A DNA stretch of 64,000 bases. Source: Methylomarinovum caldicuralii. Lineage in GTDB: Bacteria > Pseudomonadota > Gammaproteobacteria > Methylococcales > Methylothermaceae. Numbering within the stretch: the first letter of the stretch is position 1; each line of letters begins with the position of its first letter. Location of the stretch: assembly GCF_033126985.1 (NCBI RefSeq), contig NZ_AP024714.1, positions 186,001 to 250,000 of the forward strand, read 5' to 3'. Made by a program: the position numbers and the translations under genes. Below the pieces are notes generated by a model. It made no database searches. It was not told where the DNA came from and saw nothing but the letters and a program-made list of their open reading frames with translations. Positions 54,655 to 61,102 of this stretch are shown here, in pieces.

Positions 54655-55842
54655 TGTTGGGCCCCGTGTGATCATATTCCCAAAAGGAGCTATCCTTTGT
54701 TCCGTGCCTGGGATATTCTGAGTGAGCTGATGGCAGAGGCCCAGGCCAGAAAGACGACTCAAGCCTGACGGACGAGGAGGAAGTTATGGTCATCCGTCTT
54801 CACAAGAAAGCCCGCACCACCCCTGAGATCCGCCGGGAGATCCAGAACTCCGATCTGCCGGCCACGGTCCTGGCCAGGAAATACGGCGCTCATCGTCATA
54901 CCATCCGCAAGTGGCGCCAGCGCGATTCGGTCGAGGACGCCCCGCACCGGCCCCATCGCATCCATGCCACCCTGACCCCGCAGCAGGAAGCGATCGTGGT
55001 CTGTCTGCGCGAAACCCTGCTGCTGCCCCTGGACGACCTGCTGGCGGTCGTTCACCGCTTCATCCATCCCAAGATGTCCCGCTCGGCTCTGGACCGGCTG
55101 CTGCGCCGCCATGGGGTCTCCAATCTCAAGGAACTGATCGCTGCCAAGGAAGGGGAGAACGCCCCCGCCAAGGCCAAAAAGAAAGGCTTCAAGGACTACG
55201 AGCCCGGGTTTGTCCACATCGACATCAAGTACCTGCCCAAGATGCCCGATGAGACTCGGGGCCGTTACCTCTTCGTCGCCATCGACCGGGCCAGTCGCCG
55301 GGTCTACCTGGAAATCCATCCCACCAAGGAAGCCCAGGTCGCCGCCGGCTTCCTCGACCGCCTGATCGCCAAGGCCCCCTTCAAAATCACCAAGGTCCTG
55401 ACCGACAACGGCAAAGACAAATCCGCCGGGAGCGGATTTGGACCGCGCAGCGGGCCCCGAAGGGGCGAACCCCAGGGATGGGGTGAGCAATTCACCGACC
55501 GCTTCTGCGCCACCGGGGAACGCGAACCGACCGGCCGTCACCTTTTCGACCAGGCCTGCCAACGCCATGGCATCGAGCACCGCCTCATCCCACCCAAACA
55601 CCCGCAGACCAACGGCATGGTAGAACGTTTCAACGGTCGGATCGCCGAGATCCTCAAAACCACCCGCTTCCGCAGCAGCCAGGACCTGGAACGGACCTTG
55701 ATGCAGTATGCCAGTGTCTACAACCATCAGATTCCCCAGAAGGCCCTGGGACACATCTCACCGGTACAGGCCCTCAAAGACTGGCAGAAGAAGCGGCCGG
55801 AGCTCTTCAAAAAACGTGTATACAATCTCACGGGGCTTGACA
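54655..55842 (+). mobile_element. IS481-family insertion sequence
   Basis: A 1188-bp element. Left end TGTTGGGCCCCGTGTGAT (54655), right end (reverse complement) TGTCAAGCCCCGTGAGAT ending at 55842: TGT followed by the shared GCCCCGTG core, as in IS481 elements. No clear target duplication. It separates a broken methyltransferase from an orphan Tn5-like terminal repeat. Confidence 0.8.
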
Positions 55843-55883
55843 CCTATGAGAAGGGGGAAGATGTGGGTAATAGGGTGGGTTGA
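54786..55883 (+). CDS. IS481 family transposase with an in-frame insert
   Basis: A 365-residue DDE integrase-type transposase. N-terminal helix-turn-helix (about 10-50; TVLARKYGAHRHTIRKWRQ), then the core: first Asp in FVHIDIKYLP, second Asp in VLTDNGK, Glu in PQTNGMVERFNGRI. Between the second Asp and the usual EFTDRF block there are 25 extra residues (DKSAGSGFGPRSGPRR and following), encoded at 55416-55490. The last residues after GLDT run out of the IS into flanking DNA. The insert is next to the active site and may abolish activity. ATG 54786 follows GAGGAGG. Confidence 0.88.
   Translation: MVIRLHKKARTTPEIRREIQNSDLPATVLARKYGAHRHTIRKWRQRDSVEDAPHRPHRIHATLTPQQEAIVVCLRETLLLPLDDLLAVVHRFIHPKMSRSALDRLLRRHGVSNLKELIAAKEGENAPAKAKKKGFKDYEPGFVHIDIKYLPKMPDETRGRYLFVAIDRASRRVYLEIHPTKEAQVAAGFLDRLIAKAPFKITKVLTDNGKDKSAGSGFGPRSGPRRGEPQGWGEQFTDRFCATGEREPTGRHLFDQACQRHGIEHRLIPPKHPQTNGMVERFNGRIAEILKTTRFRSSQDLERTLMQYASVYNHQIPQKALGHISPVQALKDWQKKRPELFKKRVYNLTGLDTYEKGEDVGNRVG
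55416..55490. repeat. 75-bp palindrome-rich insert inside the IS481 transposase
   Basis: The insert adds exactly 25 codons. It folds into a 9-bp perfect stem (CAAATCCGC 55418-55426 with GCGGATTTG 55432-55440), then GCCCC/GGGGC with a GAA loop (55454-55466) and CCCC/GGGG (55470-55483). It looks like a small REP-like palindromic element; no second copy was noticed in the window. Confidence 0.6.
55859..55877 (+). repeat. Orphan Tn5-like terminal repeat
   Basis: AGATGTGGGTAATAGGGTG is identical to 4276-4294. Here it lies 17 bases right of the IS481 end and 11 bases before the ATG of the MBL/GT2 gene. No Tn5-like transposase is near, so only the end of an older element remains. Confidence 0.65.
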
Positions 55884-55887
55884 ACGT

Positions 55888-57555
55888 ATGACCAGTATGC
55901 GCATCCCGGTCCAGATGCTCGGCCAGTCGGGTTGCCGTCTCGAATTTCCCGATACAACCATTTATATGGATCCCTATCTTTCAAACTCAGTGCAACTGCT
56001 CGATGCGCATGATCATGATCTGGAAAGACAGATACCGATTCCATACCTTCCGGAAAAAGTCACCGACGCCGACATCGTCCTCATCACCCACGCCCACATC
56101 GATCACTGTGATCCGCACACGCTACCCCAATTGGCCCTGGCTTCGCCACAGGCGCGTTTCGTCGGTCCTGTCCCGGTGCTCAACAGACTGGCAGAGTGGG
56201 GTATTGCAGCCAACCGGCTTATGCTTGCGACTGAAGCATGGCAGGAACTTGCTCCTGATCTCCGACTGCGCGCCATTCCTGCTGCCCATCCGGAAATCGA
56301 GCGCGACTCCGATGGCAACCTTGCCTGTGTCGGTTACCTCATCGACTACGCCGGGCGGAAGCTTTACCTTGCCGGCGATACCTCAGTCAGGCAGAAAATC
56401 ATCGACACGCTAGTTGCCGACGGTCCGGTGCATACCGCTTTCCTACCCGTCAATGAACATAATTTCTTCCGTGGCCGGCGCGGCATTATCGGCAACATGT
56501 CAGTGCGAGAGGCTTTTCAGTTCGCCCAGGAAATCGGCGCCAGGCAAGTTGTTCCGGTGCATTGGGATATGTTCGCCGCCAACGCTGTCGATCCGGACGA
56601 AATTCGCCTGATTCACCAGCGTATGAACCCGGGCTTTGCCCTGCTGATCAGGCCAACTCATCTCAACCTTGGCAACGTGCAGGTCAGCATCATCATCCGC
56701 ACGCTCAACGAAGCACGATACCTCGATGAATTGCTCACCGTCATCGCTCGTCAGGAAATCGACAGCATTACCTACGAAGTCGTTCTTGTCGATTCCGGAT
56801 CTACCGATGGCACGTTGCAAATCGCCGAACGCCATGGCTGCCGCATCTACCATATCACCCGCGAAGAATTTTCCTTTGGCCGTGCGCTCAATATAGGATG
56901 CGAAGCGGCCGCCGGCGAAATTCTTGTTTTCATCAGTGGTCACTGCGTTCCAGCCAATAATCGCTGGTTGCAGCACCTCTGTCAGCCCATTCTTGACGGC
57001 CAGGCCCAATACACCTACGGGCGTCAGATCAGCGGGCCGGAAAGCCACTATAGCGAACGTCGCATTTTCGCCAAGTATTTTCCCGAAAAATCGCGTATTC
57101 CCCAGGAAGGCTTCTTTTGCAACAACGCTAACTCTGCCTTGTTAAAGAGCGCTTGGGCAGAGTATGGCTTTGATGAAGAGCTCACTGGTCTTGAAGACAT
57201 GGAACTAGCCCAACGTCTCGTCAAGGCAGGAGGCAAGGTCGCTTACGTGGCCGAAGCGGCTGTCTACCATCATCACAATGAAACCTGGCCGCAAGTGCGT
57301 CGGCGTTTCGAACGTGAGGCCATCGCTTTGCAGAAGATCATGCCTCAGGTACACGTTAGTCTTTTCGATACCCTGCGCTACATCGCTAGCAGTATCTGGA
57401 GGGACTGGCGCTGCGCTAGGAAGGAAGGGGAACAGGTTGAGTTGTGTGATATTTTCCTCTACCGCTGGAACCAATACTGGGGTACCTGGAAAGGCAACCA
57501 CGAACACCGCAAACTTTCGCACGCTGAAAAGGAAAAATACTTCTTTCCCGATTAA
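55888..57555 (+). CDS. Fusion of a metallo-beta-lactamase-fold hydrolase and a GT2 glycosyltransferase
   Basis: A 555-residue two-domain protein. Residues about 1-255 are an MBL-fold hydrolase of the UlaG-like type: YMDPYLSN, the zinc motif LITHAHIDHCDPHTL, IPAAHPE, LAGDTS and VPVHWDMF. Residues about 265-480 are a GT2 domain: VSIIIRTLNEARYLDELL, VVLVDSGSTDGTL, ISGHCVP in place of a D-x-D, and GLEDMELAQRL. A C-terminal tail with aromatic/basic residues follows. ATG 55888 begins just after an IS end, so its own promoter was probably lost or replaced. It leads a run with cytidylyltransferase, dehydrogenase and SDR genes; the hydrolase may act on the same sugar intermediate. Confidence 0.8.
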   Translation: MTSMRIPVQMLGQSGCRLEFPDTTIYMDPYLSNSVQLLDAHDHDLERQIPIPYLPEKVTDADIVLITHAHIDHCDPHTLPQLALASPQARFVGPVPVLNRLAEWGIAANRLMLATEAWQELAPDLRLRAIPAAHPEIERDSDGNLACVGYLIDYAGRKLYLAGDTSVRQKIIDTLVADGPVHTAFLPVNEHNFFRGRRGIIGNMSVREAFQFAQEIGARQVVPVHWDMFAANAVDPDEIRLIHQRMNPGFALLIRPTHLNLGNVQVSIIIRTLNEARYLDELLTVIARQEIDSITYEVVLVDSGSTDGTLQIAERHGCRIYHITREEFSFGRALNIGCEAAAGEILVFISGHCVPANNRWLQHLCQPILDGQAQYTYGRQISGPESHYSERRIFAKYFPEKSRIPQEGFFCNNANSALLKSAWAEYGFDEELTGLEDMELAQRLVKAGGKVAYVAEAAVYHHHNETWPQVRRRFEREAIALQKIMPQVHVSLFDTLRYIASSIWRDWRCARKEGEQVELCDIFLYRWNQYWGTWKGNHEHRKLSHAEKEKYFFPD

Positions 57556-57568
57556 TAAGGAGCCAAAA

Positions 57569-58270
57569 ATGACTCAAAGACCCCGTATCGTTGCTCTGCT
57601 ACCGATGAAGGCTAATAGCGAGCGCGTCAAGGGCAAGAATTTCCGTGACTTCTGCGGCAAGCCGCTGTTCCGCTGGATTCTCGATACGTTGTCTACAGTG
57701 GAAGAGATCGATCAGATCATCATCAATACCGATGCCCGTCATATTTTGGCGCAGAACGGGCTGGTCGAAACTGACCGCATTGTGATCCGCGACCGAAAAC
57801 CAGAACTCTGTGGTGATCTGGTTAGTATGAATCTCATTCTTGCCGACGACGTTGCCAATGTGCCGGCCGATATTTACCTGATGACCCATACTACCAACCC
57901 ATTGTTGAGCGCTGACACCATCCGCAAGGCACTTGCGGCATTCATGGAAGCCCATGCCACTGGCAAGGCCGATTCGCTCTTCACCGTCAACAAGGTACAA
58001 ACCCGCTTTTACCGTGCCGACTGCAGCCCAGTGAACCACGATCCGGACAATCTCATTCCCACCCAGCACCTAGAACCCTGGTTCGAAGAAAACTCCAATC
58101 TCTACATCTTTACCCGTGACAGTTTCGCCAAGACCAACGCCCGCATTGGCAAGCAGCCGATGATGTGCGAAACTCCCCCTTTCGAATCAATCGACATCGA
58201 CACCTCGGACGATTGGGATTTCGCCGTCGTTGCCGCTCGGTACTTGCATGAACGAAGAAAAGTGGAGTAA
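57569..58270 (+). CDS. CMP-sugar synthetase-like cytidylyltransferase
   Basis: A 233-residue protein of the acylneuraminate cytidylyltransferase (NeuA/KdsB) family, which joins CMP to a sugar acid. VALLPMKANSERVKGKNFRDFCGKPLF is the CTP-binding start; IINTDAR, LMTHTTNPLLSADTI and the late ESIDIDTSDDWDFA (metal-binding Asp pair) fit. The sugar is unknown. It has an AAGGAG site 7 bases before ATG 57569 and is 13 bases downstream of the MBL/GT2 gene, thus in the same operon. Confidence 0.85.
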   Translation: MTQRPRIVALLPMKANSERVKGKNFRDFCGKPLFRWILDTLSTVEEIDQIIINTDARHILAQNGLVETDRIVIRDRKPELCGDLVSMNLILADDVANVPADIYLMTHTTNPLLSADTIRKALAAFMEAHATGKADSLFTVNKVQTRFYRADCSPVNHDPDNLIPTQHLEPWFEENSNLYIFTRDSFAKTNARIGKQPMMCETPPFESIDIDTSDDWDFAVVAARYLHERRKVE

Positions 58271-58275
58271 CAAAT

Positions 58276-59211
58276 ATGAAAGTCCTGGTCACCTGTCCTC
58301 CCATGTTGGGGATGATCGATAGTTTTCGGCCTATCTTCGAAAAATACGGTGTTGAAGTGACTGCTCCCAAGGTGGTGCAGACTCTCAGCGTCGAAGAACT
58401 CAAGAAGCTTGTACCGCAGCACAACGGCTGGATTATCGGCGACGACCCTGCAACACGCGAAGTCTTCACCGCCGGCAAGGCGGGCAAGCTCAAGGCCGCC
58501 GTGAAATGGGGCATCGGCGTAGACAATGTTGACTTCGCCGCCTGCAAGGATCTCGGCATTCCTATCACCAACACCCCCAATATGTTTGGTGCTGAAGTCG
58601 CGGATATCGCCATGGGCTATGTCATTGCCCTTGCGCGCGAAACTTTCCAGATCGACGCTGGCGTCCGACAGGGTTTGTGGCCCAAGCCGCGTGGTATTTC
58701 CCTTGCTGGCAAGACCGTGGCCCTTATTGGTTATGGCGACATTGGCAAAAACACGGCCAAGCGTTTGTTGGCTTCCGACATGAAAGTTATTGCCTACGAC
58801 CCCGTTGCCCCAGATAGCCCTGAATTTGTCGCTGTTGAGCGCGCAGAATGGCCCAACCGCGTCGAAGAAGCCGATTTCATCGTCGTCACCTGCTCGCTTA
58901 CCCCTAGCAGCTATCACATGATCAATGCCGATGTTTTTGCCAGAGCAAAGGATGGTGTACGCATCGTCAACGTTGGACGTGGTCCTGTCATTGACGAGTC
59001 TGCTCTCGAATCTGCCCTCAAAACTGGCAAAGTATATTCTGCAGCACTCGATGTCTTCGAAATCGAACCGCTGCCGATGGATTCCAATTTTCGCACTCAT
59101 CCACGTTGTATCTTCGGCTCGCACAATGCTTCCAATACCGTCGATGCTGTTACACGGACCAGCAAAATAGCCATCGATAAACTTATGGAGTTCCTAGGTG
59201 TCAGCTGCTAA
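58276..59211 (+). CDS. Phosphoglycerate-dehydrogenase-like 2-hydroxyacid dehydrogenase
   Basis: A 311-residue NAD-dependent D-2-hydroxyacid dehydrogenase. AAVKWGIGVDNVDF, the NAD loop VALIGYGDIGKNTAKRLL, VNVGRGPVIDESAL (catalytic Arg region), ALDVFEIEPLP (Glu) and GSHNASNT (His) are present. It lacks a SerA-type regulatory ACT domain. Probably oxidises or reduces a sugar-acid precursor for the CMP-sugar. Overlaps the SDR gene by 14 bases and follows the cytidylyltransferase by 5. Confidence 0.83.
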   Translation: MKVLVTCPPMLGMIDSFRPIFEKYGVEVTAPKVVQTLSVEELKKLVPQHNGWIIGDDPATREVFTAGKAGKLKAAVKWGIGVDNVDFAACKDLGIPITNTPNMFGAEVADIAMGYVIALARETFQIDAGVRQGLWPKPRGISLAGKTVALIGYGDIGKNTAKRLLASDMKVIAYDPVAPDSPEFVAVERAEWPNRVEEADFIVVTCSLTPSSYHMINADVFARAKDGVRIVNVGRGPVIDESALESALKTGKVYSAALDVFEIEPLPMDSNFRTHPRCIFGSHNASNTVDAVTRTSKIAIDKLMEFLGVSC

Positions 59212-59959
59212 TCAGTCAATACGCACTTGTCTAGTGACCGGCGCAGCCGGTGGCATCGGTCGTGCTTTGGTGAAAACTTTTCATGAAGTAGGCTATTGCG
59301 TCATTGCCACGGATATCGGAGTCAAACCTGATTCACTAACCTATTCGCGCTATGTGCAAGCGGATTTGGCACGTTTTGCCGAAGACGAAACCTATGCTTC
59401 AAAAGTTATTGCTGATCTTCACCAAGCCTTGAATGGACAAGGCCTGCATGTCTTAATCAACAATGCCGCTGTTCAGATTCTAGGCGGGGCCGAAAGCCTA
59501 ACCCGCCAGGACTGGCGTACCACCCTGGATGTCAACCTGCTAGCCCCTTTCCTGCTAATTCAGGCGTTGCTTCCTGAGTTGGAAGCTGCGAAGGGTTGCG
59601 TGGTTAATATTGGTAGCATCCACGCACGCCAGACCAAGAGGAACTTTGTTACCTATGCTACCAGCAAGGCCGCCTTGTCCGGTATGACCCGCGCTTTGGC
59701 CATTGATCTTGGGTCACGCGTGCGTGTTAATGCTATTGAACCTGCTGCTATTGAGACCGAGATGCTCAAGGCCGGTTTTACCGGCAAGCCGGAGATTTAT
59801 ACTCAACTTGAGCGCTGTCATCCGCAACAGCGCATCGGTCAACCCGAAGAAGTTGCCAGTCTTGCGCTTGCTATAGTTGAGGGCGGAATGAACTTCCTAC
59901 ACGGCGCTTGCATTAGCATCGATGGTGGGATTGGCTGCCGTTTGTATGATCCTGAATAA
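59198..59959 (+). CDS. Short-chain dehydrogenase/reductase
   Basis: A 253-residue classical SDR. Cofactor loop VTGAAGGIGRAL, NNAA, catalytic Ser in NIGSIHARQ, YATSK with the catalytic Tyr and Lys, and C-terminal GACISIDGGIG. GTG 59198 lies inside the preceding gene's end, so translation is coupled. Last gene of the four-gene run; it presumably reduces or oxidises a keto group on the same sugar or linker intermediate. Confidence 0.87.
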   Translation: MSAANQSIRTCLVTGAAGGIGRALVKTFHEVGYCVIATDIGVKPDSLTYSRYVQADLARFAEDETYASKVIADLHQALNGQGLHVLINNAAVQILGGAESLTRQDWRTTLDVNLLAPFLLIQALLPELEAAKGCVVNIGSIHARQTKRNFVTYATSKAALSGMTRALAIDLGSRVRVNAIEPAAIETEMLKAGFTGKPEIYTQLERCHPQQRIGQPEEVASLALAIVEGGMNFLHGACISIDGGIGCRLYDPE

Positions 59960-60861: not shown

Positions 60862-60949
60862 GTGATCGAATACAAAGAGCATCAGTGAATGGCATTGTTG
60901 CATAACTTGCATGTCTCAGCTGTCCAACAGGGTGAGTGGCTTTTCTTGA

Positions 60950-61102
60950 AGATTACCTTGTTGCAGTACGCCAAGGTCTACAATCATTAGATCCCCCAAA
61001 ACCCCTGGGCCATATTTCACACGTCCAGGTCCTTAAAAAATGGCAGTCGAAACGACCGGAGTTGTTTAACAAGTGTGCATATAAGCTCACGGAACCGGAC
61101 AG
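60950..61102 (+). pseudogene. Decayed 3' end of an IS481-family transposase
   Basis: Bases here align with the last 150 bases of the IS481 element at 54655-55842: the same order of LQYA, VYN, then GHISHVQVLKKWQSKRPELFNK. One internal stop (TAG after AACCAT-type codons) and many substitutions show long decay. The right terminus CTCACGGAACCGGACA matches CTCACGGGGCTTGACA of the intact copy. Confidence 0.7.

Follow-up and report, generated by a model that had tools for sequence, protein, structure and literature searches.

The distal part of a 64,000-nucleotide stretch of the Methylomarinovum caldicuralii genome (assembly GCF_033126985.1, contig NZ_AP024714.1, forward-strand positions 186,001 to 250,000; hereafter the window) carries a compact operon at 55888-59959 (+ strand), which encodes a metallo-beta-lactamase (MBL) domain fused to a GT2 glycosyltransferase, a cytidylyltransferase, a D-2-hydroxyacid dehydrogenase and a short-chain dehydrogenase/reductase (SDR). 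We propose, with a probability of roughly 0.5, that this cassette makes an aldulosonic (2-keto sugar) acid activated with cytidine monophosphate (CMP) by oxidation, not by aldol condensation with phosphoenolpyruvate (PEP), and that the product is passed to the surface-glycan machinery. The SDR would oxidise an aldose at C1 to the aldonolactone, which the UlaG-like MBL domain would hydrolyse. The D-2-hydroxyacid dehydrogenase would then oxidise C2 to yield a 2-keto-aldonate that closes to the hemiketal, the NeuA-like cytidylyltransferase would place CMP onto the anomeric oxygen, and the fused GT2 domain and/or a GT42/Maf-like protein would transfer the activated acid. The reactions, the directions in which they run and the sugar itself are all what we infer from the genes; a hex-2-ulosonic acid, e.g. 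2-keto-gluconate or 2-keto-galactonate, would fit. The observations behind the proposal are the domains, the motifs, the operon, the co-conservation of its genes, a swap of lactonase families and, in some loci, an aldolase in lieu of the complete redox block. A preliminary description of the locus had already suggested a CMP-acid made by redox steps, possibly outside the usual nonulosonic acids, and after a comparison of 86 loci this is still the best reading, with a chemistry deduced from the gene content. The features are as follows.

55888-57555, + strand: MBL-GT2 fusion open reading frame (ORF), ATG at 55888, alternative ATG at 55897
55888-56673, + strand: UlaG-like MBL domain, N-terminal part of the fusion, proposed sugar-acid lactonase (PF12706, 1.9e-23)
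56674-57555, + strand: GT2 glycosyltransferase domain, C-terminal part of the fusion, without DxD (SGHC instead; PF00535, 1e-21)
57569-58270, + strand: PF02348 cytidylyltransferase, NeuA/KdsB superfamily, a subfamily of its own (3.4e-17)
58276-59211, + strand: D-2-hydroxyacid dehydrogenase similar to phosphoglycerate dehydrogenase/GhrB, proposed to oxidise aldonate at C2 (PF02826, 2.1e-50; PF00389, 2.2e-16)
59198-59959, + strand: SDR with GTG start, proposed aldose 1-dehydrogenase (PF13561, 3.2e-44)
54786-55883, + strand: IS481-family transposase abutting the operon, outside the pathway (NF033577, 230 bits, cut-off 224)

The genes are spaced by +13, +5 and -14 bases (the last being a 14-base overlap), the ATG of the cytidylyltransferase is preceded by AAGGAG at a distance of 6 bases, and the encoded proteins match PF12706/PF13483 and PF00535, PF02348, PF00389/PF02826 and PF13561/PF00106, all above the curated cut-offs. 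The single tight operon of the preliminary description was thus confirmed; its four genes hold as four ORFs, but they encode five functions, since MBL and GT2 are truly fused in one ORF. None of the four frames is disrupted, and the proteins contain the expected catalytic motifs. Comparison of the operon genes with three relatives gave dN values of 0.11-0.36 and dS values from 1.4 to saturated, a clear sign of purifying selection. Because dN is far below dS and the identical gene order recurs in distant bacteria, the operon is not a chance arrangement.

Loci for comparison were obtained by scanning the collection with an alignment of the cytidylyltransferase alone, which yielded at least 594 pattern matches and at least 474 relatives. 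The best 80 of these relatives were retained (62-85% identity to the cytidylyltransferase). Adding the window, G025 and five plasmid loci gives 87 rows above 250 bits, or 86 without L016; equivalently, the counts over 86 loci refer to 89 rows minus L016 and two outgroups. L-numbers designate the loci or stretches compared, whose flanks extend to about 10-12 kb at most and are in some cases cut by contig ends. Four further loci (L017, L018, L020 and L021) fell under the 250-bit threshold and are not counted.

A close 2-hydroxyacid dehydrogenase was found in 72 of the 86 loci, the GT2 in 69 and the SDR in 49. The MBL is fused to the GT2 in 9 loci and encoded by a separate gene in 20, and the order MBL - GT2 - cytidylyltransferase - dehydrogenase - SDR occurs often. 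When the dehydrogenase (E <= 1e-60) or, separately, the MBL domain (E <= 1e-30) served as the seed, 369 genomes of the class gave the identical three hits, namely the genome of the window and two others with the whole block. The conservation of the neighbourhood, which the preliminary description had named as a check, is thereby borne out, and we consider the module lactonase - GT2 - cytidylyltransferase - dehydrogenase - SDR a solid comparative result. Counted with L016 and without the window, the 86 loci belong to Pseudomonadota (50), Verrucomicrobiota (11), Cyanobacteriota (5), Nitrospirota (4), Planctomycetota (3) and six further named phyla with one or two loci each, while 6 loci are unassigned. 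Of these 11 named phyla, those with one case need care, since several loci are contigs of metagenome-assembled genomes. More tentatively, and with somewhat less than even confidence, we suggest that a horizontally spread module in these 11 phyla makes a CMP-hex-2-ulosonic acid via C1 oxidation, lactone opening and C2 oxidation, with a lactonase-GT2 fusion in some members and an aldolase lineage in which the redox block is replaced. L022 is a mosaic, its cytidylyltransferase being 85% identical to that of the window and its dehydrogenase 63%.

A core of GT2, cytidylyltransferase and dehydrogenase was also seen on polysaccharide plasmids of Thalassovita (L012), Gemmobacter (L013) and Sulfitobacter (L014), where by the annotation the GT2 gene shares 26 bases with the cytidylyltransferase gene; on the Thalassovita plasmid it is accompanied by dTDP-rhamnose and kdsA genes. 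A variant row on a Leisingera plasmid (L020:7868-10921) combines an SIS isomerase, an inositol-monophosphatase-like protein, a nucleotidyltransferase of the NTP transferase type (26% identical) and a phosphoglycerate dehydrogenase-like protein (39%). A phage origin of the cassette was considered and rejected. There was no match to it in 50,697 phage records, and in 66 relatives on viral contigs (22-36% identity) MBL, GT2, dehydrogenase, SDR, SMP-30 and aldolase were all unseen in the stretches compared at the thresholds used; two of the 66 (L103 and L120) do carry a gene of the GT42/MptE type. A search of the accessible full-text literature, in which subscription papers were mostly lacking, yielded no description of the cassette.

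The strongest sign of a lactone intermediate is that two unrelated protein families swap places in the module, because one of them is a lactonase by name and the other has UlaG among its nearest folds. The MBL was found in 29 of the 86 loci and the SMP-30 gluconolactonase (PF08450) in 18; none had both, and 39 had neither. Among the 72 dehydrogenase loci the mutual exclusion gave a Fisher p of 1.1e-4, a value that overstates independence since the loci are related. Ten of the 18 SMP-30 genes lie on the same strand as the cytidylyltransferase and within 3.4 kb of it (L031, L037, L044, L063, L080, L083, L084, L096, L099 and L100), five of them upstream of the GT2, i.e. in the place of the MBL, and five at the SDR end. 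On the cytidylyltransferase tree, in which 41 of 86 inner branches have support below 80, a single SMP-30 clade was rejected against the MBL rows (p-AU, approximately unbiased test, 0.0011), and the tree requires six changes or more. This suggests that MBL and SMP-30 are interchangeable lactonases, often in equivalent places.

The MBL domain itself is nearest in fold to 3bv6 (Z 27.9, 2.9 A, 255 residues) and to UlaG, an L-ascorbate-6-phosphate lactonase (2wyl; Z 27.6, 2.3 A, 243 residues), the next other entry having a Z of 25.0. The metal ligands H68, H70, D72, H73, H134, D164 and H225 are invariant in 23 rows. However, the identity to UlaG is about 21%, the score with the UlaG model NF008688 (1.5e-13, 50.4 bits) is far below its equivalog cut-off of 306, and the domain is here fused to a GT2. 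Taking fold, metal ligands and the SMP-30 swap together, the MBL domain, which the preliminary description had treated as an unspecified partner, is probably the lactonase of the pathway.

A second exchange concerns the origin of the keto acid. In 10 of the 86 loci (eight from Verrucomicrobiota, one from Elusimicrobiota and one on an Acuticoccus plasmid) an HpcH/HpaI aldolase gene is located upstream of the cytidylyltransferase; the L087 enzyme, the one compared, has HpaI, GarL and RhmA as its nearest relatives. Close dehydrogenase, SDR, GT2 and lactonases were found in none of these ten loci at the thresholds used. Nine of them are nested among the redox loci in the cytidylyltransferase tree and L015 branches outside; on the free tree the fewest changes between the dehydrogenase and aldolase routes are three. 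HpcH/HpaI-class aldolases make 2-keto sugar acids, which is why their presence supports a 2-keto acid as substrate of the cytidylyltransferase. The comparison thus supports the idea that two routes to a 2-keto acid may feed one cytidylyltransferase subfamily.

The 2-hydroxyacid dehydrogenase has the Rossmann GxGxxG motif and the Arg/Glu/His triad that define its superfamily; R235, E264, H283 and D175 are invariant in eight rows. Among 73 proteins, GxGxxG was found in 72, VN-x-x-RG in 61, DV-x-x-EP in 69 and the His in 72. By sequence its nearest relatives are phosphoglycerate dehydrogenases and glyoxylate reductases. For the SDR, the best models and solved relatives include glucose and aldose 1-dehydrogenases but also enzymes of many other kinds; all 25 models shown stayed below their cut-offs (glucose 1-dehydrogenase 149 against 215, aldose dehydrogenase 136 against 341). 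The designation as a putative aldose 1-dehydrogenase was therefore chosen because of the gene company of the SDR. Several roseobacter loci in which no SDR orthologue was seen contain another SDR within about 8 kb whose best match is D-xylose 1-dehydrogenase (280 bits in L012, 274 in L014 and 275 in L059; cut-off 400), and in L012, L059 and L076 this gene overlaps or adjoins the SMP-30 gene. Oxidative sugar pathways of the Weimberg type combine an aldose 1-dehydrogenase with an SMP-30 lactonase. The cassette resembles them in its SDR and lactonase, and in some roseobacter loci in the D-xylose 1-dehydrogenase-like SDR beside SMP-30. It differs in that the stretches read showed no aldonate dehydratase, an enzyme at which no search was specifically aimed. 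Since a 2-hydroxyacid dehydrogenase and a cytidylyltransferase follow, the cassette would be biosynthetic, not catabolic.

The same relationships leave room for a pathway in which the block makes a CMP-keto acid but the dehydrogenases tailor or reduce the acid, or supply a small precursor such as hydroxypyruvate for an unlinked aldolase. The kinship of the 2-hydroxyacid dehydrogenase with phosphoglycerate dehydrogenases and glyoxylate reductases, the position of the aldolase loci within the same cytidylyltransferase tree and the models of ring-acting enzymes, e.g. KduD, near the SDRs would all agree with this. We nevertheless consider it unlikely: two interchangeable lactonases would be left unexplained, and an HpcH/HpaI-type aldolase was found in 0 of the 72 redox loci, in a search that did not cover other aldolase classes.

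For the last step of the proposed oxidative route there are two candidates. The GT2 has an SGHC pattern in place of DxD in 67 of 68 orthologues, whereas the other GT2s of the window have DADG and GADD there, and a GT-A enzyme that needs no metal would go well with a nucleoside-monophosphate donor. The second is an MptE-like protein (PF01973), seen, within the stretches compared, in 48 of the 73 loci with a dehydrogenase and in 7 of the 10 with an aldolase. When a profile of 18 such proteins was searched against the PDB, sialyltransferases were the best matches (9 of 11 rows, eight of them Cst-I/Cst-II; Cst-II best with 9.2e-5), and the predicted structure of one protein (pLDDT, predicted local distance difference test, 94) resembles Maf with Z 15.8, the pterin kinase MptE with 12.9 and Cst-II with 12.7. 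The gene is located just upstream of MBL-GT2 in near relatives, e.g. L022, L024, L025, L027 and L028. In M. caldicuralii the sole PF01973 match lies at 2.381 Mb, outside the window (L177:5013-5792, - strand); it is 66% identical to the copies directly preceding MBL-GT2 in near relatives and matches the WaaZ and PseD models far under their cut-offs. We thus regard the MptE/GT42-like protein as a possible transferase of the module. Two large proteins often precede the GT42-like gene. One of them (family F4; L023:6669-8351, L028:5605-7623 and 13 other loci) contains repeats of TPR-like character, and its C-terminal region is weakly methyltransferase-like; searches gave no informative solved relative for it and, in the M. 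caldicuralii genome, only a 19-bit match. The other is family F8 (L052:319-2085 and 10 other loci).

Several observations weigh against an oxidative route. With regard to the lactonases, three more SMP-30 genes are within 2.7 kb of the cytidylyltransferase but on the opposite strand, 5 of the 18 are more than 4 kb away, 28 of the 72 dehydrogenase loci have neither lactonase in the stretch compared, and the MBL fold is used by other hydrolases too. The SDR orthologue was not seen in 24 of the 72 dehydrogenase loci, and the fold of the MptE-like protein is also that of a pterin kinase (Z 12.9). As to the aldolase variant, a single clade for the ten loci was not rejected (p-AU 0.487), so the swap may be one event; L015 has an aldolase together with a distant 2-hydroxyacid dehydrogenase (28% identical); and the aldolases searched for were those of the HpcH/HpaI class. 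A common product of both routes needs an extra assumption, because the aldolase would normally lead to a 3-deoxy acid and the redox route to a 3-hydroxy acid. The GT2 accompanies only redox loci (0 of 10 aldolase loci), a pattern left unexplained if it were merely the transferase of a shared product. Finally, the L012 region also holds a Kdo (3-deoxy-D-manno-octulosonic acid) set of kdsA and manno-octulosonate cytidylyltransferase, and L017, an Enterobacter plasmid locus, has a 33% identical cytidylyltransferase with H107, T165 and E174 beside a NeuB-family gene.

The last two points bear on the more conventional idea that the cytidylyltransferase serves an ordinary nonulosonic acid or Kdo. 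The enzyme matches PF02348 with 63.4 bits (gathering score 22.6) and thus belongs to the NeuA/KdsB superfamily. S-x-R-x3-KN was found in 87 of 87 sequences and DID in 86 of 87, and H107, T165, E174, N175, D209 and D211 are invariant in 85 rows. The host genome does contain the genes in question. PF03102 identified one NeuB, at 1.314 Mb, in a row (L176:4729-9512, - strand) with NeuC (359 bits, cut-off 236), an unnamed 447-residue protein and a cytidylyltransferase of its own; a KdsB gene is present at 683 kb (250 bits, cut-off 155), and a further PF02348 match at 1.914 Mb. The preliminary description had noted that no synthase for sialic or legionaminic acid and no Kdo enzymes are present. This holds within the window, but NeuB, NeuC, KdsB and a second gene of NeuA type are all encoded elsewhere in the genome, and the absence was given too much weight. 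NeuB and NeuC genes elsewhere, named there as what would overturn the idea, thus exist but probably do not feed the cassette.

Two candidates were rejected on these grounds: feeding by the genomic NeuB/NeuC, which have their own cytidylyltransferase alongside, and a role in the Kdo pathway, for which the true KdsB is a separate gene. Further differences come from the enzyme itself. In the host protein beside NeuB the positions of H107, T165 and E174, which we take to be sialic acid contacts in the Neisseria enzyme, are occupied by Gln, Arg and Arg, while KN and D209/D211 are kept; the three residues do not by themselves exclude a nonulosonic acid, since the L017 relative shares all of them. 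The cytidylyltransferase of the cassette is far under every curated NCBIfam cut-off shown, the best of nonulosonic type being PseF (69.7 bits against 205.7), and KdsB models gave 18-30 bits against cut-offs of 193-281. The nonulosonic cut-off test is weak, as the NeuA-like host gene next to NeuB also fails it (PseF, 104.6 bits). The partner genes of the block belong to neither pathway, and an ordinary nonulosonic acid or Kdo is therefore, in our judgement, highly improbable. In the Enterobacter locus (L017:4955-12562) the cytidylyltransferase, inositol-monophosphatase-like and NeuB-family genes are situated between copies of one ISAs1 transposase and adjoin an ATP-binding cassette (ABC) export block.

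The cassette shares with CMP-nonulosonic pathways (NeuC/NeuB/NeuA, PseF, legionaminic PtmB) the PF02348 cytidylyltransferase, in many loci neighbours with a possible GT42/Maf kinship, and the setting in surface-glycan loci. It differs from them in having no NeuB/NeuC in the block, their place being taken either by a lactonase with redox enzymes or by an HpcH/HpaI aldolase, and in scoring far under the NeuA/PseF cut-offs. With the Kdo pathway (KdsA/KdsB) it would share a CMP-activated 2-keto acid, but no Kdo synthase is found beside it in the window.

The acid need not be a sugar acid: CMP might be placed on a small hydroxy or phosphonic acid. Phosphonate pathways use cytidylyltransferases with a 2-hydroxyacid dehydrogenase, the same pair of enzyme classes, and MBL and SDR are generic. 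Yet the loci with annotation are polysaccharide clusters that include genes for sugar nucleotides and glycosyltransferases, others have ABC export or Wzz genes, and the alternative gluconolactonase and the sugar-acid aldolase indicate sugar acids. No phosphonate gene is named in the annotated plasmid stretches, although no search was aimed at such genes. We consider a non-sugar acid very unlikely.

Among capsules, a hexulosonic acid occurs in the K3 capsule of E. coli, which contains 4-deoxy-2-hexulosonic acid according to the title of a work cited in PMC10433991. There was no DNA match to the cytidylyltransferase-dehydrogenase stretch in the E. coli collection, and identity with a K3-type capsule locus of E. 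coli was rejected on this basis. We know of no other hexulosonic acid in a bacterial capsule than that of K3. The known CMP-activated acids are, to our knowledge, 3-deoxy ulosonic acids formed by condensation of PEP or pyruvate with an aldehyde. If the oxidative reading is correct, the cassette would be a new and widespread variant of CMP-ulosonate supply, would be the first route known to us that reaches a CMP-sugar acid with no such condensation, and would add a class of acidic glycan building blocks in marine roseobacter plasmids, cyanobacteria, Nitrospirota, Verrucomicrobiota and others. It would also explain loci annotated as 'acylneuraminate cytidylyltransferase' that may make no neuraminate. 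As only a handful of enzymes is involved, the proposed pathway is directly testable.

The operon has a GC content of 52-54%, compared to 60% for the window. In a search of 311 genomes of the order, the cytidylyltransferase was matched in 10 at 1e-20: the window's own genome, G025 as a close match (70%) and eight others at 29-33%; within this set, nine listed genomes of the same genus had no match. Low GC and patchy occurrence in the order thus suggest that the operon was acquired horizontally.

The host copy might also be a stranded, perhaps silent remnant, cut off from its transferase and export genes by transposons, which would be compatible with the oxidative reading of the module. IS481 abuts the operon, from about 251 kb onwards there are group II introns together with ORFs that look by eye like transposases, and the possible transferase gene is separated from the cassette by 2.14 Mb of the contig (0.56 Mb should the contig be circular). 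As this gene adjoins group II introns and the cassette has the same kind some way off, mobile elements may have split an original locus. Against a silent remnant stand the four intact frames with their catalytic motifs and the low dN, even though the latter reflects long-term and not recent selection; on balance we regard this as quite unlikely.

The match of the IS481 transposase to its family model is interrupted by an insert, and at about 60936-61100 of the window, after the FkbM gene, there is what appears by eye to be a degraded terminus of an element of this kind. The group II introns are arranged head to tail both at L168:5457-11254 (about 254-260 kb of the host genome) and at L177:456-3548 (2.377 Mb), with reverse-transcriptase ORFs and RF02005 matches recurring at a period of 1987 bases; one site has three intron matches and the other two. 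Such tandem arrays of whole introns look unusual, or may be an effect of the assembly.

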